Shown piece after piece: positions 35,047 to 54,825 of a stretch of DNA of 64,000 nucleotides. Position numbers and translations under genes: made by a program. Each line of letters begins with the position of its first letter. The first letter of the stretch is position 1. Source of the stretch: Nitrospirota bacterium (GTDB lineage Bacteria > Nitrospirota > Nitrospiria > Nitrospirales > Nitrospiraceae); the NCBI GenBank assembly GCA_040755395.1, contig JBFMAX010000008.1:62001-126000 (forward strand). Reading direction: 5' to 3'. The notes beneath the pieces were generated by a model. The model saw only the letters and a list, made by a program, of their open reading frames with translations. It did no database searches and was not told the DNA's origin.

Positions 35047-36291
35047 CTAGTCGATTTTCACCAACGGGACGTTCTGCGTCAACTTGACGATCGGGATCGG
35101 TTGGAAGACCGGGTCCTGGGCGCCTTTGGGAGATTCCGCCTCGATTCGCTGCAAGAACGCGGGTGGACCGGTCACCGGCGCGTAGTTCAGTGCGACCTCG
35201 ATGTCGAAGCTCTTGGTATCCTTGGGCGTCGGGAAGGTGAACGTCTCCACCCGGATCTCTTCCGGTTTCAGCACCGTGTCTTCCAACACCTTGACCGCCT
35301 TGAAATCGAACACCGTCTTCTCGCCTTTGGCATCCGCATACGTCCGCCCATAGACCCGCTGCTCGCTGAAGACGGTTTTGAGATTCTTGCCCTTGATCAC
35401 GAAATCCAGTACGACGCTCGCCCAGGCGGGATGGGTCGTCGGCAGATTATGCGGCACCAGACTCTGCACCGTCACCTTGACAGTAGACTTGTCGCCTTTC
35501 ACATCCGCCGACACATCCAGCTTGGCGGCCTCTTGGCGAAGTTTCCCGATCCGGCCCGGAAAGGTATGATTCGCGACCTTACGCTTGCTCTCGCCGTTGG
35601 CGGATTCCCCGATCTGTTCCGGCATATGGCAGGTTTGGCATTCCTTTCCCGATTTGACCGCCTTGCTCTGATCCCAGTTGCCCAACAAGTCGTTGCTCTT
35701 ACCGAGGTTCGCGGCGGTAGGAACCCCTTGGTGGCAATTCAGGCAGAGATCGGACTTGCGGAACAAATCCAATTCCATGGATTGGTGCGCCAGATTTTGG
35801 ACGAAATCTTTGTAAGGGCCGTAGAGCGTTTTTCCCGGTTCGTATTTGGGGACCGGCGGAAGGCTGCTTCGATCGACCTGTTTGATCAGGTGACATTGGG
35901 CGCAGCCGACTCCGTCGATCGTCGGATCGCCGGATTGCACCTGGGTGATGAACATCTGCGCCGAATCCGCAAACTCCCGTACGTGCGGGGCATGACAACG
36001 GAGGCACAGCGCTTTGTCTTTGCCCCCGGAGAACGCCAGATACTCGTCCAATGCAGCCCGGAAGGCCGGAGAATGGATGGACCGCGAGAGGGGCGACGTT
36101 TCCCATTCTTCAAAGACTCGCTCGTGGCAGCGTTTGCACTTATTGGAATTGGGGAACACCTTCTCGATGACCGCCTGCGACTTGACGGAATCCTGCGCGA
36201 CGCTAAGATCGGCCGAGTTGCCGGCTACCATAGCGCCCACTAACACCGCGCCAGCGACGCCCAGTCGCGCTACACTCCTGCTCGGAATCAC
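35047..36291 (-). CDS. Periplasmic pentahaem cytochrome c
   Basis: GTG 36291 follows AAGGGGGA. The 414-aa product has a signal peptide (ending near VAQ, residue 33) and five CxxCH motifs at 52-56, 96-100, 130-134, 183-187 and 218-222, followed by a haem-free beta-rich domain of about 190 residues. The first haem is followed by ERVFEEW, as in cytochrome c554-like proteins. It is a clear paralogue of the next cytochrome upstream (shared GVGCAQCHLI/GIGCASCHLI and LYGPY). It is the last gene of the putative nitrite-oxidation block. Confidence 0.9.
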   Translation of the reverse strand: MIPSRSVARLGVAGAVLVGAMVAGNSADLSVAQDSVKSQAVIEKVFPNSNKCKRCHERVFEEWETSPLSRSIHSPAFRAALDEYLAFSGGKDKALCLRCHAPHVREFADSAQMFITQVQSGDPTIDGVGCAQCHLIKQVDRSSLPPVPKYEPGKTLYGPYKDFVQNLAHQSMELDLFRKSDLCLNCHQGVPTAANLGKSNDLLGNWDQSKAVKSGKECQTCHMPEQIGESANGESKRKVANHTFPGRIGKLRQEAAKLDVSADVKGDKSTVKVTVQSLVPHNLPTTHPAWASVVLDFVIKGKNLKTVFSEQRVYGRTYADAKGEKTVFDFKAVKVLEDTVLKPEEIRVETFTFPTPKDTKSFDIEVALNYAPVTGPPAFLQRIEAESPKGAQDPVFQPIPIVKLTQNVPLVKID

Positions 36292-36359: not shown

Positions 36360-37664
36360 CTAGAGCGACTTCGTCCGGAACGTCAGGACGCGAGGCTGCG
36401 TGTATTCCTCGATGACTTTGACGGCCGCCGCCCGGTCTTGATCGTTAGCCAAGGTCGCGAGGTATCGTTCCTTCAGCGCGGGCGCAGGCTCGGGAATCAG
36501 CGCGTAGGTCAACACCGCTTCCACGCTGGCCGGCGGCGCACCGCTTGGGATCGTCAATGAAAACGGCACCCGCCGGGTCGTGCCTCCCTTGACGAAAGGA
36601 TCGGGAATCGGCCCGCGCAGGATCTGCTCATAGGGCAATCCGAATTTCTTGACTTCCTCGGCCAGCACCAATCCTTTCGGATCCTTGACGGTGATCGTCA
36701 CGAAGAATTGCTTCAGGACCGGGTCTCCGTCAGGAAAACTATGCGGCAGGCTCCCGACCCTCACCAGGACCGTTCCTTCCACGGCCGTTGCGGACTTGGT
36801 GGCTTCGATGTCCACCCGCGGCATCCATTCGGCCTGCAAGTTGCGGTTCTTGAGCAGGATGCCGGGAATCACCACGCCTCTGAACCAGTGGCGGCCGATG
36901 GCCCGTGTCATGGCGCCACGCTTGGAGGTCGAGCTGCCTGTGGACGGTTCCATGTGACAATCCTGGCAGATGGTACCCTGAAGAATCTCCCCGGGAAGAT
37001 CGCGCCGGGTCACATCTTTGACCTTGTCGAAATGACAGGCGGCGCAGTAATTGGCCCCTCTGTAGAGATCGGATTGACTGGCCGGATGGACCAAGTTCTC
37101 CTCCGGATCCGCGTACGGTCCGTAGAGCACCTTTCCCGGCTGAACTTTGAATGTCGGCGGGGGGCCTGGGTTTTTCTCCATCGAATTGATCAGATGACAG
37201 GAGGCGCATCCGATCCCCTCCACTTCCACTTTTCCCGACAGAATCTGGTTGACGATCTTGTCGGCATGTTGCGGGAACACCGTCACCGCAGGCGCGTGAC
37301 AAGACAGACACCGGGCGCGCTCCTCGGCCGTCGGGTTGGTCTGCATCCATACACCCAGCACCGTTCTGAACACCGGCGACTCAAAAGATGTGCCGTGCAA
37401 CAGCGCCGCATCGACCCGCCCGAACGTTTTCAGATCGGGCGTCTGCTCGCGCATGCCTTTCCATTCTTCGAAATGCCGGTCATGGCACTGCTTACAATCT
37501 TCCGAACGGATGAAAATCTTCTCGATCTCGGCCACCCAGTCGCTGGGCGTCTCGGGAGCCTGTCCGTCGGCTTTCTGCGCCACGGCCCTTCCGTGATGGA
37601 AGGCATTCACACCGACGATAAGCGCCAGCAGCGTGCCGACCGCCAGCTTGTTCATCAGTCTCAT
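36360..37664 (-). CDS. Periplasmic pentahaem cytochrome c (paralogue)
   Basis: The 434-aa protein has a signal peptide (residues 1-30) and five CxxCH motifs at 57-61, 119-123, 153-157, 207-211 and 233-237, then a C-terminal domain without haem. Motif order and the CHLI and LYGPYADPEE segments match the neighbouring 414-aa cytochrome, so the pair arose by duplication. They are separated by 68 bp and are likely co-transcribed. A role in carrying electrons from a periplasmic oxidoreductase is inferred from context. Confidence 0.9.
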   Translation of the reverse strand: MRLMNKLAVGTLLALIVGVNAFHHGRAVAQKADGQAPETPSDWVAEIEKIFIRSEDCKQCHDRHFEEWKGMREQTPDLKTFGRVDAALLHGTSFESPVFRTVLGVWMQTNPTAEERARCLSCHAPAVTVFPQHADKIVNQILSGKVEVEGIGCASCHLINSMEKNPGPPPTFKVQPGKVLYGPYADPEENLVHPASQSDLYRGANYCAACHFDKVKDVTRRDLPGEILQGTICQDCHMEPSTGSSTSKRGAMTRAIGRHWFRGVVIPGILLKNRNLQAEWMPRVDIEATKSATAVEGTVLVRVGSLPHSFPDGDPVLKQFFVTITVKDPKGLVLAEEVKKFGLPYEQILRGPIPDPFVKGGTTRRVPFSLTIPSGAPPASVEAVLTYALIPEPAPALKERYLATLANDQDRAAAVKVIEEYTQPRVLTFRTKSL

Positions 37665-37698
37665 ATCGCGCTCTCAGACCGCCGGCAGTTAACCGGCT

Positions 37699-38121
37699 TC
37701 AATCCCGCTTGCATCCGACAAAATGAAAATTGAGAATGCCCCCGACGCCTTGATTATCGGGGTCGGCCGGCTCGTAGGTGCCGACCGTGAAGTTACAGGT
37801 AGGAATGGCGCGTTTGAGGGCAAGGCCGAAATCCTTCAAGGTCCGAACTTCCACCTTGTCGATTTCTTTGATGACCGCCCGAACCTTGATGCCGGCAAGA
37901 TCAGCCGGAGTCCCGCCGATCACTTCGAAGACCACCACCCCTTCCGGTCTCTGCAGCTTCAATTCTTTTTGAATCTCCTCATCGACCGGCCCGACCACAA
38001 TACCGAATTCTTCGCCGATCTTGAGTGCTTCTTCCTCAGTCATCTCTCCGTCGGTCGCGGCCCCGACCAGCGGCGGAAAGAAGCTGCCGCCGAACCAAAA
38101 CGCCACCAGGCAGACGAACAT
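37699..38121 (-). CDS. Membrane-anchored PDZ-domain protein
   Basis: From ATG 38121 the product is 140 aa. It has an N-terminal hydrophobic segment (FVCLVAFWFGGSFFPPLVGA) acting as signal or anchor, then a single PDZ-like domain (GVVVFEVIGGTPADLAGIKV). Two Cys occur in the C-terminal half (PTCNFTVG, FVGCKRD) and may form a disulfide. The frame is open to a TTG at 38238, but that would run through a terminator-like hairpin at 38124-38153. Probably a periplasmic scaffold for the cytochromes encoded just downstream. Confidence 0.7.
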   Translation of the reverse strand: MFVCLVAFWFGGSFFPPLVGAATDGEMTEEEALKIGEEFGIVVGPVDEEIQKELKLQRPEGVVVFEVIGGTPADLAGIKVRAVIKEIDKVEVRTLKDFGLALKRAIPTCNFTVGTYEPADPDNQGVGGILNFHFVGCKRD

Positions 38122-38123
38122 AA

Positions 38124-38153
38124 AAAAAGCCCTGCCGGGGAGGAGGGCTTTTT
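38124..38153. terminator. Bidirectional-looking intrinsic terminator before the PDZ gene
   Basis: AAAAAGCCCT (38124-38133) pairs with AGGGCTTTTT (38144-38153) around a 10-nt loop. On the minus strand the stem is followed by seven T residues directly abutting the ATG at 38121. It can end the transcript of the NxrC-like gene upstream; its 3' arm also contains the AGGG that would be the ribosome-binding site of the PDZ gene. Confidence 0.7.
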
Positions 38154-38282
38154 GTCCGGCCGACCGATTGGTGGTCCCGCCAACCTCCAAGTCGTCCACT
38201 CCGATGCTTATGCTCGATTCCTGAAACGTGACAGTCAATCCGTTCGTCGGTCCTTGCCGATCCGGGACCGATCCAAGGACAG

Positions 38283-39113
38283 CTATAGCTTCACCGGATC
38301 AATCGCCAACTGAAACCAGGGCGCCACCGCCTTCTGTCCGTTCCGCTCCTTGTTCTCCCCGTTCCAAACCGCGAACGCGATGGCTTGCATCCGGCCCGGA
38401 ATCAGTTTGGCTTCGTTTTCCTGTTCCTCGGTCGAAAGAGGGCGCCTGATCACGACATGCCATACGCCGTCTTTCCACGTCGCCTTGCCTTGGACCCGCC
38501 CCTGCTTCTCTTTGGTCGTCAATGTGCTGAATCCGCCGCCGATCAAGTCTTCCACCGAAGAAACCCGTCTCGGGATCACTTCAAACCGTCGCACTTCGCC
38601 GCTTTGCTTCTCCGCAGCCCGGGCGGCTCGACGATCGATGTCGCTCTGCCAATCGGCTTTCCAATGCCAGATGTTGATGTAATGATCCAACTGGCCCATG
38701 CAGAAAAAGGCCGGGGCGTCTCCGAGCGGCAACCCGACCGCGACTCCGTCACGGAACGTGCCCGGCGTCAGTCGGTCGTTCTTGGTGTTGTCCTGCCACT
38801 CCAACAGAAAGGCGATATCTTTTCCGTTATGCACGGAGCGCACGACCAACGCTCTCGCGGTCGGTTCGGGCCACACCGGCCGCGTGATGATCTGGCCGCT
38901 GAGCGGCAGCGTCATCGGCGGAATCTTGTTCCACGCCGGATCTTCCGGGGCGGTGGGAATCTCACCCTCAATCAAATGGGAACGGATGATCATCCCCTCG
39001 GAACTCACGACCGGAATGCCGAGCCCTCCAAGCACAAACGCGCTCATCAGGACGAGGCACAGCAGACACAACCCGAAAGGATGGGCGGTCCACAACCGGG
39101 TCATTCGCGCCAT
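38283..39113 (-). CDS. NxrC-like / ethylbenzene dehydrogenase gamma-family haem protein
   Basis: Starting at ATG 39113 the product is 276 aa, with an N-terminal hydrophobic segment (residues 13-34) serving as signal or anchor. The body is the EB_dh/NxrC-type beta-sandwich: MTLPLSGQIITRPVWP, FLLEWQDNTKNDR, a FFCMGQLDHYINIWHW block with Met139 as candidate haem-b ligand, and VSSVEDLIGGGFSTLTT. Such gamma subunits pass electrons from molybdenum enzymes of the type II DMSO reductase family. It closely resembles the 317-aa protein at 44981-45934. Confidence 0.85.
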   Translation of the reverse strand: MARMTRLWTAHPFGLCLLCLVLMSAFVLGGLGIPVVSSEGMIIRSHLIEGEIPTAPEDPAWNKIPPMTLPLSGQIITRPVWPEPTARALVVRSVHNGKDIAFLLEWQDNTKNDRLTPGTFRDGVAVGLPLGDAPAFFCMGQLDHYINIWHWKADWQSDIDRRAARAAEKQSGEVRRFEVIPRRVSSVEDLIGGGFSTLTTKEKQGRVQGKATWKDGVWHVVIRRPLSTEEQENEAKLIPGRMQAIAFAVWNGENKERNGQKAVAPWFQLAIDPVKL

Positions 39114-39170
39114 CGCGCAGTCTCGGCAACCGTCAATGGACAACTGAGTGTGTGGAGACAAGATTCGCCG

Positions 39171-44980: not shown

Positions 44981-45934
44981 TCACGGAAGCTTCAGCGTGA
45001 ACCACGTGGAGATGCCTTTCATGCCGTTTCTCTCCACGTTGGTGCCGTCCCAAACCGCAAACGCCACAGGCACGGACATACCGGGCTTGAACTGCACATC
45101 GTTCGGATCGCTGGTCTCCAAGGCCCGCTTGACGACGATGCGCCAGGTCGGACCCGTGCAGCATCCTCCCTTCACGGAACCGGCCGGTTCCCACACGCCA
45201 TTACCGATTACGTCCTGGTGCGCCTGCGTGGTGAGCGTGCTGAACCCGTTGGCGTTGAGATCTTCCACGGAGCTCACGCGCAACGTCGGATCCGACAAGA
45301 TATTCCCAGACCAGATACCAGGATTAAAGGGGCCGAGGCTCCGACCGATCCGGTCCGGATAGGTGACACCGCCAGCGGGCTCTTCGAAATAATAATCCCA
45401 GAAGATACCGGGATACTGATCATCCACGTCCCAAATCCCGGCACTATCCTTGCCCAAGTCCTTTTGCCACTCCGCATTCCACCGCCAAATGTTCACGGTC
45501 CCACCCGACTGCCCCATGCACTGGAACGGAGGTGCGCCGGACGTGTTCACCGGGAACTGAATCGCCGCTTGATCCCTGAAGTCCTGGGGCCCGATCGTAG
45601 TATCGTTCTTGGTCTGGTCGGCCCAATCGAGGCGGAAACCGATTTCTTTGCCGTTGGTCACGGCTTTGACGAACACCGACTTGACCGAGATGTTCGGGTG
45701 CATCGGAGTGGTAATCGTCTGCCCACTCAGGGGCACGACGACACCCGGCACACCTTCCCAGATCGGATTGGCACCGTCCATGGGAATGGGGCCTTTGATG
45801 GCCTTCACTGGGATCGTGACCGGCTGGCTGACCGCCAGCGGCACTTGCCCAATCGTCAGCATTACGCCAACAACCAGGGCAGAGAGAAGAATGCCAAACA
45901 CCAAACGCTTGTTGCGTGTCTGCACCAGTCTCAT
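44981..45934 (-). CDS. NxrC-like nitrite oxidoreductase gamma-subunit candidate
   Basis: ATG 45934 follows AGAGGAGGGC. The 317-aa protein has a Sec-type signal/anchor (residues 10-37). The EB_dh/NxrC domain then follows: VVVPLSGQTITTPMHP, GFRLDWADQTKND, a FQCMGQSGGTVNIWRW block with Met140 as candidate axial haem ligand, VSSVEDLNANGFSTLTT and FAVWDGTNVERNGMK. This family supplies the haem-b subunit of type II molybdenum enzymes such as nitrite oxidoreductase. Its own terminator follows, and the TorD chaperone gene lies directly upstream. Confidence 0.87.
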   Translation of the reverse strand: MRLVQTRNKRLVFGILLSALVVGVMLTIGQVPLAVSQPVTIPVKAIKGPIPMDGANPIWEGVPGVVVPLSGQTITTPMHPNISVKSVFVKAVTNGKEIGFRLDWADQTKNDTTIGPQDFRDQAAIQFPVNTSGAPPFQCMGQSGGTVNIWRWNAEWQKDLGKDSAGIWDVDDQYPGIFWDYYFEEPAGGVTYPDRIGRSLGPFNPGIWSGNILSDPTLRVSSVEDLNANGFSTLTTQAHQDVIGNGVWEPAGSVKGGCCTGPTWRIVVKRALETSDPNDVQFKPGMSVPVAFAVWDGTNVERNGMKGISTWFTLKLP

Positions 45935-50197: not shown

Positions 50198-51649
50198 TTA
50201 ATCTTCATCGGACTCCGGTTCTGCGTCGTTTCTCCCTGACGGAATTCCGTAGCGCTTGCATTTCTCCCACAGCGCCTTCCGCGAAAGCCCTAAAATCTTG
50301 GAGGCTTCGGTTCTGCTTCCACCGACTCGCTCAAGCACGGAGACGATGTATTCCCGTTCGAACTGTTCCCTTGCCGCTGACAAAGAACACGTCGGTGCCT
50401 CTTTTCGCGCTGTTCCCGTCAGACCTTCGCTGCAAAAGCCGCATGATTCTTGGGGTGCCCCGCCCAGGTAGGGACAAGATTGGAAGCCACAGAGATCCCA
50501 TGGCTGAATCTCCTCCTGCGCACGCCCTAACGCAATGGCCCGTTCAACCATATTCTCCAGCTCTCGCACGTTGCCCGGGTACGAATAGCGCAAGAGCAGT
50601 TCGCGAGCCGCCTGCGAAAATCCTTTGAGGTCTTTGTTCATGTGGGCCGACCTCGTGTGGAGCACATACTCGGCGATCAACAGGATATCTTCCTGACGCT
50701 CCCGCAACGGAGGCAAAACCACCTGCACGACGTTCAGCCGATAAAACAAGTCCTCGCGGAAGCGGCCGGCTGCGACTTCCTTCTTCAGATCCTTCTGTGT
50801 CGCACACACCAGACGTACGTCCACTTCGATCGTCTCGTTTCCCCCGACCCGCTCGAATTGCCGCTCCTGCAGGACCCGCAGTAATTTGACCTGCACCACC
50901 GGAGAAATCTCGCCGATCTCGTCCAGGAACAGCGTCCCTTTGTTGGCCAGCTCGAACCGTCCACGTCGCTGTCGCAACGCCCCGGTGAAGGCCCCCTTCT
51001 CATGGCCGAATAGTTCCGCCTCCAGCAGGGTCTCCGGCAGAGCCGCGCAACTGACTTTAATCAGCGCATGATCCTTTCGCGGGCTGATGTGGTGAATCGC
51101 ATTCGCAACCAATTCCTTGCCAGTCCCGCTCTCCCCGACGATGAGGACGGTTGAATCGGTCCCGGCCACCAGCTTGATCTTTTCCAGCACCGCGCGCATT
51201 CGCTCGTTCTTGCCCAGGATCCCCTGGAAACTGAACTTGCCGGCCAATTCCTCTTTTAACTGCAAATTCTCCTGACGGAGCGCGAGCACTTTGGCCAGTC
51301 GATCGACGATGAGCAACAACTCGTCCATCTGGAAGGGCTTGGTGATGTAGTCATACGCTCCCAGTTTCATCGCGCCGACTGCCGTCTCGACCGAGCTATG
51401 CGCAGTGATCACGACGACTTCCGTTCGGGGCGAAACTTGCTTGCATGTCTGCAGAAGCGTCAATCCATCCGTGCCCGGCAAGCGCAGATCGGTAATGACG
51501 ATGTCGAACTGACGTTTCTGGATGGCCTCGACGCCCTCGGTCCCACTGGCCGCCGCCTGAACGTCGTATCCGACGGCCTTCAATGCGTCGCTCATAGAGA
51601 GCCGCATCAGCGGCTCGTCATCCACAATGAGTAGGCTGAGAGGCTTCAC
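50198..51649 (-). CDS. NtrC-type sigma54-dependent response regulator
   Basis: The 483-aa protein has a receiver domain (LLIVDDEPLMRLSM, phospho-acceptor Asp in VITDLRLPGTDG, Lys in YITKPF). An AAA+ domain follows, with Walker A GESGTGKELVANAI, the sigma54-contacting GAFTGA loop and Walker B TLFLDEIGE. The C-terminal Fis-type HTH reads GGSRTEASKILGLSRKALWE. Between AAA+ and HTH is a Cys-rich insert (CGFQSCPYLGG, ESCGFC) that could bind a metal or cluster. It overlaps the histidine kinase gene by 4 bp, so the two form a pair. Confidence 0.93.
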   Translation of the reverse strand: MKPLSLLIVDDEPLMRLSMSDALKAVGYDVQAAASGTEGVEAIQKRQFDIVITDLRLPGTDGLTLLQTCKQVSPRTEVVVITAHSSVETAVGAMKLGAYDYITKPFQMDELLLIVDRLAKVLALRQENLQLKEELAGKFSFQGILGKNERMRAVLEKIKLVAGTDSTVLIVGESGTGKELVANAIHHISPRKDHALIKVSCAALPETLLEAELFGHEKGAFTGALRQRRGRFELANKGTLFLDEIGEISPVVQVKLLRVLQERQFERVGGNETIEVDVRLVCATQKDLKKEVAAGRFREDLFYRLNVVQVVLPPLRERQEDILLIAEYVLHTRSAHMNKDLKGFSQAARELLLRYSYPGNVRELENMVERAIALGRAQEEIQPWDLCGFQSCPYLGGAPQESCGFCSEGLTGTARKEAPTCSLSAAREQFEREYIVSVLERVGGSRTEASKILGLSRKALWEKCKRYGIPSGRNDAEPESDED

Positions 51650-54600
51650 GACAGTCTCCCGATCGCGACCCGGTCCCTTGCGACAGGCAAGCAGAGCGTA
51701 AACGTCGTGCCTTTCCCGACCTCGCTTTCAACAAGAATCTTCCCTCCGTGCCGCTCGACGATGCCGAGACTGACGGAGAGCCCCAGTCCGGTCCCTTCTC
51801 CTTCCCCTTTCGTGGTGAAGAATGGGTCGAAAATCTTCGGCAGCACGGACCCCGGAATGCCGCACCCGGTGTCCTTGATCTCGATCAGGCAGAGGCCCTC
51901 GTCGATGCGCGTGCGGATCGTGAGCACGCCTCCCCCCTTCATGGCTTGCACCGCGTTGAGGATCAGGTTCATCAGCACTTGCTCGATCATGTGGCGGTCG
52001 ACCATGAGGTCGGGCAGATTGCGGCCCAGGTCCGTTTCCAACACGATGCGATTCGCGACGAAGGTGTGGTTGGTGAGAACGAGCACCCGCTCGACGACCT
52101 GGTTGATGTCGGTCAAGGAGAGCTCGGGCTCGTGCTGTTGCGAGAAATCCAGCAACTGCCTGACGATCTTCTGCACGCGGCGCAGCCCGTCCTCCATCGA
52201 GGCTAGATATTCCTCCTGCCTGGCCGGTGGCAGGTTCCCTTTCCGCAGGTTGTACAAACAATTCAGGATACCGCCCAGCGGGTTGTTGATCTCGTGCGCA
52301 ACCCCGGCCGCCAGTTTCCCCACCGATGCCAGCTTTTCGGAGCTGAGGATTTGCCGCTCGAGCTTCTTCGTCTCGGTCATATCGCGGGCGATGCCCAAGA
52401 CGCCCAGAATGCCGCCTTCCGAATCGTAGAGGGGCGACACGCTGACCATCACCGTCCGAGTGTCTCCCGCCCTGGTGAGCACTTCGACTTCGTAAACCTG
52501 CTTGGTGCCGATATCCAGCGTGCTCTTAAGCCGGCGTCCCCGGTGCCGCTTGGACAACAGAGACAGGTACGGACGACCGATGAGGTCCTCTTTCCGGTAC
52601 CCCCAGGCCTCGACCTTGCTGTTGACGTAGGTGAACCGCTGCTCCGAATCCAGGGTGTAGATGACATCGTTCGCGTTCTCGAGGAGGTTTTCCAAATACT
52701 GTTTGGTTTCCTCGATCTCGCGCGTCCGCTCTCGTACTTTGAGTTCAAGCTCCTCCCGATAGTCCTCCAACTGTCGTTCGAGCCGCTTTCGATCGGTGAT
52801 GTCTCGGAGCTGAACCATGACCAGCGGCCTCGCGTCGCCTTCCACCCGAATCAAGTCCATCTCGACCGGTGTCGCCCGACGAGAATGGTCGAGGACGACA
52901 ATCTCCTGCGTCGGTACGCGCCGCTGGCCCGCCACGATTTTGTCGATCAATTTCCGCATCTCCTCGTGATGACCCGGGAGCACGATCTCCAAAATGTTCC
53001 GGCCGACGACCGCTTCCTCCGCATATCCCAGCGCCTGCTCCTCCCGTTTGTTCACGGCGACGATGCACCCTATAGGATCGACCATGAACACCGAATCCGC
53101 CACCAGATCGAACAGCGCCTTATAGCGAGCCTGGGACGCCGAAAGTTGCCGGGTGCGTTCCGCGACTTCCTGTTCCAATTGCGTCGTGTATCGCTGCACC
53201 TGCTGCTCCAACTGACGGCGTTCGGTGACGTCGCGGACGAAGGCCCGCGAATGGACGAGCCCGCCGCCCCCCGTGTCAAACAAGGCCGTCGCATGGATCT
53301 CCACATCGATGGGCCGCCCGTCCCGCGCCAGGAATACGGTCTCGATCGAGCCACGGCCCTGAGCCATCAGGCGCTCGAGATACCCGAGAATTTCGGATTC
53401 CAGCCCCTTGGGCACCAAGTCCCACAGCCGCATGGCCAACATCTCGTCCAGGGTATATCCCAACTTTTCGAGGCCGGTCTTGTTCACATGCACGAACTGG
53501 CCGACCTTGTTCAATTGACAGATCATTTCCGGCGAGTTCTCGATCAGGTCTCGATATTTCTCTTCGAGCCGTCTGACCTCCGCCATGCGCTGCTCAATCT
53601 GGTTGAAGGAATATTGCAGATTGGCGGCCATCGCGTTGAAGGCTTCCGCCAAGTCCTGAATTTCGTCCCCCGTCCTGAGATTCAGTCGCTGATCAAGCCG
53701 GCCGCTTCCGATCTCCTGCACGCCTTCGTGCAGGGTTCGGATGGGTTTCGAGATCCGCCGCGCGACCGCGACGCCGGTTATCAACAGGACAGCCAGCACG
53801 AAGAATCCATAGAGCGTGACCTTCATCAAGAGCTCATCAAGCGGAGCATACGTCTCCTCGGGATCTTGCCGTACGAACGTGACCCACCGTTTACCGCCCA
53901 GGCTGTCCGGCGCGAGGCTCTCGCCCAATCGAATCGGCGCGAAGCCGACCAGCGAATTGCGGCCGCCGTGCGAATCGTCGAGCGCAATGACCCATCCGGC
54001 TTTTCCACGCCCGATCGCGGAGACCAGCTCAGGTGTCACCGTATGTTCTTCCGGAGCCAGGATCGGGCAGATCAACGGAGTCCCTTCGGAGCTCATCAAC
54101 ATCGCGTGGCCCGTCGATCCGACGGTCACCTCGGAGATGGCATGGAACAACGTGTCCCGTCGCAACAGGACTGTCACGGCTCCGATGGCTTCACGCTGCT
54201 CATCATCCAGAATCGGCGCCGACACGTTGAGCACGTGGGTCCCGAAGGAGGGGTCGAAATAAATGTCGCTGACATAGACCCGCCCTTGTCCATTTTTGAC
54301 GACAGCCTGCCACCACGAGCTTTTCCCGTAGTAATACTCCACCTGCGGAATGGAGCTGATCACCAGTGCGCCCCGGTTGTCCGTGACGAAAATGCCGACG
54401 TAGTCCGCTTTTCGGATGTCGTGCCAGCGGATCAGGTAATTGGTCACGATGCGGTTGATGAAGATCGGAAACTCGCTGCGCCGGTCGCGTGCGCGCCATC
54501 GTTGCTGCCAGTCGCGGATCATCGACTGGATGGTGCGCTCGTCCTTGCCCGCATAGGTTCGGTTGGATTCCGTCACCGCCGTCCGCAGAAACGGCGTGGT

Positions 54601-54825
54601 GGCCAACTGTTGGGCCTCGTTGATTCCCCGGGTGACCTGCAGCTCGATCCGACGAGCCGCCTCCACGGCCAGTTCTTTGAAATTCGCGCCGATCGTCTCG
54701 CGGAGCGCGCGCCGCTCCTCAACGTACGTCAGGGCAAGGGACAGGGAAAGGGGGAGGAGGCCGACCATCACGATGGCCGCGATGATCTTCCGCTGGAGAC
54801 TCCGTGACCGACCCCAGAACGCCAT
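51646..54825 (-). CDS. Cache-HAMP-PAS sensor histidine kinase
   Basis: The 1059-aa membrane protein has a helix at about residues 14-32, a periplasmic Cache-type sensor (about 40-335, with VSDIYFDPSFGTHVLNVSAP), a second helix (about 340-360) and HAMP (RISKPIRTLHEGVQEIGSGR). Three PAS domains follow, then HisKA with the phospho-His in LAAGVAHEINNPLGG and HATPase with NLILNAVQAM, DTGCGIPG and GTGLGLSV. Small ligands in the periplasm are the likely signal. The paired regulator is encoded directly downstream. Confidence 0.93.
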   Translation of the reverse strand: MAFWGRSRSLQRKIIAAIVMVGLLPLSLSLALTYVEERRALRETIGANFKELAVEAARRIELQVTRGINEAQQLATTPFLRTAVTESNRTYAGKDERTIQSMIRDWQQRWRARDRRSEFPIFINRIVTNYLIRWHDIRKADYVGIFVTDNRGALVISSIPQVEYYYGKSSWWQAVVKNGQGRVYVSDIYFDPSFGTHVLNVSAPILDDEQREAIGAVTVLLRRDTLFHAISEVTVGSTGHAMLMSSEGTPLICPILAPEEHTVTPELVSAIGRGKAGWVIALDDSHGGRNSLVGFAPIRLGESLAPDSLGGKRWVTFVRQDPEETYAPLDELLMKVTLYGFFVLAVLLITGVAVARRISKPIRTLHEGVQEIGSGRLDQRLNLRTGDEIQDLAEAFNAMAANLQYSFNQIEQRMAEVRRLEEKYRDLIENSPEMICQLNKVGQFVHVNKTGLEKLGYTLDEMLAMRLWDLVPKGLESEILGYLERLMAQGRGSIETVFLARDGRPIDVEIHATALFDTGGGGLVHSRAFVRDVTERRQLEQQVQRYTTQLEQEVAERTRQLSASQARYKALFDLVADSVFMVDPIGCIVAVNKREEQALGYAEEAVVGRNILEIVLPGHHEEMRKLIDKIVAGQRRVPTQEIVVLDHSRRATPVEMDLIRVEGDARPLVMVQLRDITDRKRLERQLEDYREELELKVRERTREIEETKQYLENLLENANDVIYTLDSEQRFTYVNSKVEAWGYRKEDLIGRPYLSLLSKRHRGRRLKSTLDIGTKQVYEVEVLTRAGDTRTVMVSVSPLYDSEGGILGVLGIARDMTETKKLERQILSSEKLASVGKLAAGVAHEINNPLGGILNCLYNLRKGNLPPARQEEYLASMEDGLRRVQKIVRQLLDFSQQHEPELSLTDINQVVERVLVLTNHTFVANRIVLETDLGRNLPDLMVDRHMIEQVLMNLILNAVQAMKGGGVLTIRTRIDEGLCLIEIKDTGCGIPGSVLPKIFDPFFTTKGEGEGTGLGLSVSLGIVERHGGKILVESEVGKGTTFTLCLPVARDRVAIGRLS

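Follow-up and report, generated by a model that had tools for sequence, protein, structure and literature searches.

The window analysed here, a stretch of 64,000 nucleotides from a Nitrospirota bacterium, carries on its minus strand a gene (37699..38190) for a PDZ-like exported protein of 163 aa counted from TTG 38190, with a signal peptide and a PDZ-like domain, for which both Pfam PDZ scores were under the gathering cut-off. The gene upstream of it, of nxrC type (38283..39161, minus strand), ends 92 nt 5' of TTG 38190 and encodes an NXR gamma-subunit-like protein matching EB_dh (E 3e-31) and, under the cut-off of that model, DMSO_red_II_gam. Two multihaem cytochrome c genes, cyt1 (36360..37664, minus strand) and cyt2 (35047..36291, minus strand), follow downstream and were assigned from domain matches and synteny. 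Further upstream are genes for an NHL protein, TatA, a TPR protein, a radical SAM protein, a second NxrC-like protein and a TorD-like chaperone, and the order TatA-NHL-nxrC-PDZ-cyt1-cyt2 is shared, within the reach of the contigs, by named relatives with and without the hairpin described below.

To our knowledge, the control of nxrC and its associated cytochromes in Nitrospira is poorly known. The cluster in which the hairpin lies is an NXR accessory cluster, with no nxrAB among the genes examined. Two NxrC-like subunits (38283-39161 and 44981-45934, minus strand) are encoded in this one cluster, together with TatA, the TorD-like chaperone, a NapG-like ferredoxin and a radical SAM protein of B12 type. 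Two genes of N. moscoviensis, nxrC_1 (NITMOv2_3617) and nxrC_2 (NITMOv2_3624), are listed in PMC6606698, and from their number, size and spacing we infer that they correspond to the pair of NxrC genes found here.

A hairpin in the signal-peptide codons

At the beginning of the PDZ gene, the minus strand can form a hairpin (38124..38153) with a 10-bp stem and a 10-nt loop. As read from the sequence, the 5' arm is AAAAAGCCCT (38153-38144), the loop CCTCCCCGGC (38143-38134) and the 3' arm AGGGCTTTTT (38133-38124), and all 10 of the 10 pairs are Watson-Crick. A run of seven T (38128-38122), the first five of which double as pairing partners for the A-run in the 5' arm, ends directly at an ATG (38121-38119), a candidate internal second start; the stem with its T-run touching this ATG is thus arranged as originally predicted. 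An AGGG within the 3' arm (38133-38130) stands eight bases 5' of ATG 38121. When sites were required to have 8 or more pairs, a loop no longer than 10 nt and 6 or more T among 9, the hairpin was the sole site of its class on either strand of the 64-kb window, scoring on both because it is palindromic, and six Markov-shuffled controls of the window yielded zero sites. A terminator scan with a loop limit of 8 did not pick it up, since the loop has 10 nt. The pattern AAGCCCT-N4-16-AGGGCTTTTT had a single location in the 4.1-Mb genome, again matched on both strands as a palindrome, so that the element is no REP-like dispersed repeat, and Rfam models gave 0 matches at E<=1 to 37600-38500. Folded alone, a 91-nt segment had an energy that was not significant (z -1.63), nor was that of the window sequence in a synonymous-codon shuffle (z -0.91, p 0.18); the evidence for the hairpin is therefore comparative.

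For the translation of the PDZ gene, the original prediction had offered either a start further upstream, at TTG 38238, with a terminator inside the coding region, or a start at the ATG masked by the hairpin. Among 84 loci carrying the hairpin (defined below), the frame runs open into the PDZ domain without a stop in 84/84 and an upstream start codon is present in 81/84, which supports the first alternative, apart from the codon named. Codon -14 before the hairpin's GCC is ATG, GTG or TTG in 66/84 loci (TTG in 56), none of the remaining positions between -22 and -2 exceeding 17, and in the window this codon is TTG 38190 (38188..38190, minus strand). Stop codons in the frame are found at each of the positions -24 to -15, then in 2 loci at -14 and in 1 at -11, with no later ones. 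A Shine-Dalgarno-like GGAG (38199..38202, minus strand) lies 8 nt 5' of this TTG; the earlier statement that the only upstream AGGG is the one in the 3' arm was accurate, although GGAG 38202-38199 offers a better upstream start. GAGG or GGAG is found 6-9 nt 5' of TTG -14 in genera g1, g2 and g18 and in most of g9, with AAGG at 8 nt in the rest of g9. TTG 38238 was rejected as the start in view of the conserved register at codon -14, and the translation start predicted from these comparisons is most likely TTG 38190.

From TTG 38190 the predicted N-terminus is charged and then hydrophobic, as is typical of signal peptides. Because the start lies upstream of the hairpin, the hairpin encodes part of the predicted signal peptide: codons 14-22 of the frame, K-A-L-L-P-G-R-A-F, correspond to stem, loop and U-tract, with one more F from the T-run, and run from the charged end of this peptide into the first part of its hydrophobic core. 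A pause for signal recognition was rejected by reasoning as a role for this segment, the nascent chain at codons 14-22 being still inside the ribosome.

Against translation of the leader, codons -13 to -2 showed a nearly neutral mix of synonymous and non-synonymous changes, 43 to 99, in two genera (g9 without L142 and L159, g18 without L027). TTGGAGG at the start (codons -14 to -12) is conserved in g1, g2, g9 and g18 beyond the needs of a start codon, and codon -13 is GAG in 56/84 loci. Three loci, L047, L099 and L150, also speak against an upstream start, having no start codon 5' of the hairpin; they keep the hairpin and a full T-run, and the CTG right after the T-run may be their start.

Distribution of the hairpin

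PDZ matches were found in 58/61 relatives at E<=1e-3, some of them distant PDZ matches, and in 167/175 genomes of the family at E<=1e-20; a plasmid collection gave zero. The 210 PDZ loci, after removal of L019 and L068, which lack upstream sequence, reduced to 142 distinct ones, and conservation of the hairpin, which the original prediction had proposed to check, was observed in 84/142. These 84 consist of 82 identified by protein motif (a spurious regular-expression match, L170, having been removed) plus L021 and L023, and they cover 19/22 genera of the family, L099 being without a genus assignment. N. defluvii (L135/L072) is among the bearers, its stem being of the AGA/CTT form. The remaining 58/142 take in all 14 loci from other families and most of genus g5, including N. 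moscoviensis (L093/L156); the hairpin has mostly been lost in g5. A substitute terminator-like hairpin in the gap was seen in 0/58 loci without the motif. The loss in g5, taken with this lack of a substitute, indicates that the operon can manage without the hairpin.

Where present, the hairpin is placed with great regularity. It lies in the PDZ reading frame in 84/84 loci, and frame-blind DNA scans of the loci returned zero out-of-frame copies. GCCC and GGGC are 12 nt apart in 83/84 and 18 nt apart in one, L017, through an in-frame insertion of 6 nt in the loop. Searched against the 61 genomes, the R2 hairpin model made strong matches (E<1e-4) at PDZ genes only, plus one in genome G009. Eleven of the weaker matches (E 1.7e-4 to 0.033) were inspected; they resemble terminator-like hairpins of other kinds, the majority with a longer stem, and were rejected as instances of this element.

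In G009 (loci L237, G009:C46, 2334-2654, and L249, G009:C27), the R2 match is on another contig than the PDZ homologue and falls between nxrC and cyt1. The PDZ core is missing from this operon, the hairpin and T-run are still there, and the frame after the hairpin is a short signal-peptide-like remnant followed by a stop. The PDZ homologue sits elsewhere, with no operon neighbours within the 5.3 kb read. Since G009 keeps the hairpin at its operon position without the PDZ core, the hairpin can outlive its PDZ gene, although a recent loss would look alike.

Selection on RNA pairing

The two outer stem pairs formed by bases 2 and 3 of codon -1 are standard pairs in 81/81 rows of the alignment tables, which leave out L017 (with its +6 nt loop), L021 and L023. 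Base 2 of codon -1 and base 1 of codon +7 pair as A-U in 52 rows, G-C in 23, G-U in 5 and C-G in 1; base 3 of codon -1 and base 3 of codon +6 pair as A-U in 52, G-C in 25 and G-U in 4. Covariation was assessed in 46 sequences hand-picked as a spread from the 84, which are related to one another while the shuffles ignore kinship: 95.9% of cells were paired vs 90.7 in shuffles, and both-side changes occupied 25 cells vs 8.0, values reached by 0/500 shuffles in either case. Sliding the pairing register lowered both scores. Parsimony counted 9 and 5 changes at the two pairs of codon -1 (bases 2 and 3, respectively), about six of them both-sided and none breaking a pair, on a midpoint-rooted tree with one very long branch (L159) that leaves the directions of change uncertain. 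The PDZ gene on that branch (L159, G183:C132) contains an in-frame TAA and is either decaying or misassembled.

Across the 81 rows, the three outer pairs include 19 G-U and 0 A-C combinations, a pattern that, with few independent events, fits a sense-strand RNA and not a DNA palindrome. A DNA operator, in which the inverted repeat would be bound by a dimeric regulator, could account for the repeat itself and its constant spacing. It is disfavoured, and we regard it as very improbable, since the outer pairs tolerate G-U but never A-C mismatches, the T-tail is strand-asymmetric, and a co-change of ACA and GTT was found in a single locus (L146).

The codons that build the hairpin, AGG, GCT, CTT and TTT, are rare or less common elsewhere in the PDZ gene. 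Relative to the PDZ cores of the 84 loci pooled, Arg is AGG in 75/78 cases at the hairpin vs 40/516 in the core, Ala at codon +6 is GCT in 56/81 vs 54/711, Leu is CTT in 59/79 vs 31/372, and Phe at codon +7 is TTT in 55/55 vs 174/502. An energy test by synonymous shuffling across the 84 loci gave a moderate signal (median z -2.0; 51/84 at p<=0.05). These data bear on whether the palindrome is a mere by-product of a conserved KALxxGRAFF signal peptide, which would explain why the frame is kept and the loop length changes by multiples of 3, the sole indel being the +6 nt of L017. Such a coding constraint is refuted as the sole cause, and we give it hardly any credence: it predicts neither the bias towards rare codons nor the covariation, K, R or T on one side change together with F, L or V on the other, and many relatives have ordinary signal peptides without the motif.

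Enrichment of the U-tract is confined to the sense strand. The nine bases after GGGC contain on average 6.88 T on the sense side vs 4.29 on the antisense side, and T is the third base of codons +7 and +8 in 138/168 cases vs 48.8 expected from core usage. Taken together, comparison of the loci shows that, atop the protein sequence and in a fixed frame, the predicted sense-strand RNA pairing and sense-strand U-tract have been selected.

Proposed partial termination, a possible second start and operon output

The element has the G+C-rich stem-loop with a U-rich tract directly after it by which intrinsic terminators are recognised. We favour, as somewhat more likely than not, the reading that it is an intragenic element of intrinsic-terminator type which partially gates transcription on its way from nxrC into the genes for PDZ and the cytochromes. 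Because the hairpin has been maintained by paired compensating mutations, its codons in nitrite-oxidising Nitrospira relatives probably also limit the output of the downstream operon. PDZ translation would start at TTG 38190, about 42 nt 5' of the stem core, and the U-tract would end about 70 nt past the start, where some of the polymerases arriving from nxrC may stop; the PDZ protein and the two cytochromes would then be made at a lower level than nxrC, possibly an adjustable one. With the hairpin lying within the first 100 bp, a ribosome promptly initiating at TTG would relieve the terminator only partly. In E. coli, a terminator placed 30 bp inside an ORF is described as keeping most of its efficiency, translation cutting it by about 10%, and this small effect is explained by the first ribosome having yet to catch the polymerase (PMC4824070). 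The E. coli result thus favours a partial terminator weakly relieved by translation.

Variation in the tail counts against this reading. The tail ranges from 5 to 8 T of 9, with 5-6 T in 34/84 loci, largely in g9 and g18, and in twelve of 81 rows a C-G pair between codons -2 and +8 lengthens the stem where the T-run is broken. As the T-tail is weaker in g9 and g18 yet the stem is kept, the hairpin may have a role besides or instead of termination in those genera. A rival reading makes the hairpin a stabiliser or processing site at the 3' end of nxrC mRNA, the stem protecting or positioning that end and termination being incidental; the stem kept where the T-run is weaker and the retained hairpin of G009 after loss of the PDZ gene agree with it. 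We nevertheless judge this quite improbable, because third-base T at codons +7 and +8 goes far beyond what pairing needs and the hairpin-less loci show no terminator-like hairpin in its stead.

As a partial terminator, the element resembles canonical intrinsic terminators in its G+C stem lengthened by A-T pairs, its sense U-tract and its position 3' of a gene's stop; it differs in lying inside the coding sequence of the next gene, where it encodes a signal peptide, in its loop of 10 nt, and in that termination here is predicted. Intrinsic terminators and ORF-internal 3' ends are themselves already known (PMC7815308; PMC4824070). The E. coli examples in these two papers likewise involve premature ends within coding sequences, including the functional terminator 30 bp in, whereas the present hairpin is conserved across a family, shows compensatory changes and keeps a fixed distance from the start in many genera. 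The titles and abstract openings listed by searches of an open-licence library mentioned neither a covarying terminator among the codons of a signal peptide nor any Nitrospira attenuator. If the terminator reading is true, the locus would be a clear evolutionary case of a selected intrinsic terminator inside a signal-peptide coding region, where one set of bases is used both to export the protein and to fold the RNA.

The ATG next to the T-run was evaluated across the loci as well. Codon +9, right after the T-run, is ATG, GTG or TTG in 69/84 loci and CTG in 9 (68/81 in the 81-row table for the first three), while other codons from -6 to +15 are start-like in 0-14 of the 81 rows. In 15/19 genera the majority of rows have one of the common start codons at +9, and AGGG stands 8 nt 5' of it, within the 3' arm, in most loci. 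The predicted hairpin-masked ATG thereby stays in play as a possible additional internal start, to which L047, L099 and L150, without any upstream start, also point, but not as the sole start of the gene. One could accordingly picture a two-start translational hairpin that hides the AGGG of the internal start, a long form from TTG 38190 being exported and a short form made when the hairpin opens. On balance this appears unlikely. Codon +9 is not start-like in g12 (GTT), g21 (ATA), g5 (CTG) and most of g2, a protein started there would lack a positive n-region and open within the hydrophobic core, and the sense-strand U-tract would be left unexplained. Moreover, single-base changes turn ATG, TTG, GTG and CTG into one another with the residue staying hydrophobic, and part of the pattern at codon +9 may hence be inherited.

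The original prediction had also called the layout attenuator-like, and as a description of the predicted elements this is plausible. Like the leader-peptide attenuators of trp and pyrBI type (the pyrBI terminator inside its leader gene is discussed in PMC4824070), the locus has a terminator hairpin in or beside a translated ORF, so that ribosome position could matter. Unlike them, it has no separate leader ORF, the frame running into PDZ without a stop in 84/84 loci, and no conserved antiterminator or run of regulatory codons was seen. When codons -22 to +3 were folded without the 3' arm, no shared partner of the 5' arm emerged; the 5' arm paired with differing partners across single-sequence folds. 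A self-contained attenuator would take the gene's first 23 codons as its leader: the weak TTG start, the terminator at a fixed spacing of 42 nt and the second start with its Shine-Dalgarno sequence in the 3' arm would jointly set both the read-through into the operon and the ratio of the exported long form to the internal short form. This combined arrangement we consider decidedly unlikely, and the partial gate between nxrC and the genes that follow remains the reading we prefer.

Upstream of the cluster, at 50198-54825 on the minus strand, a response regulator of sigma-54 type adjoins a large PAS histidine kinase and constitutes a candidate regulator.
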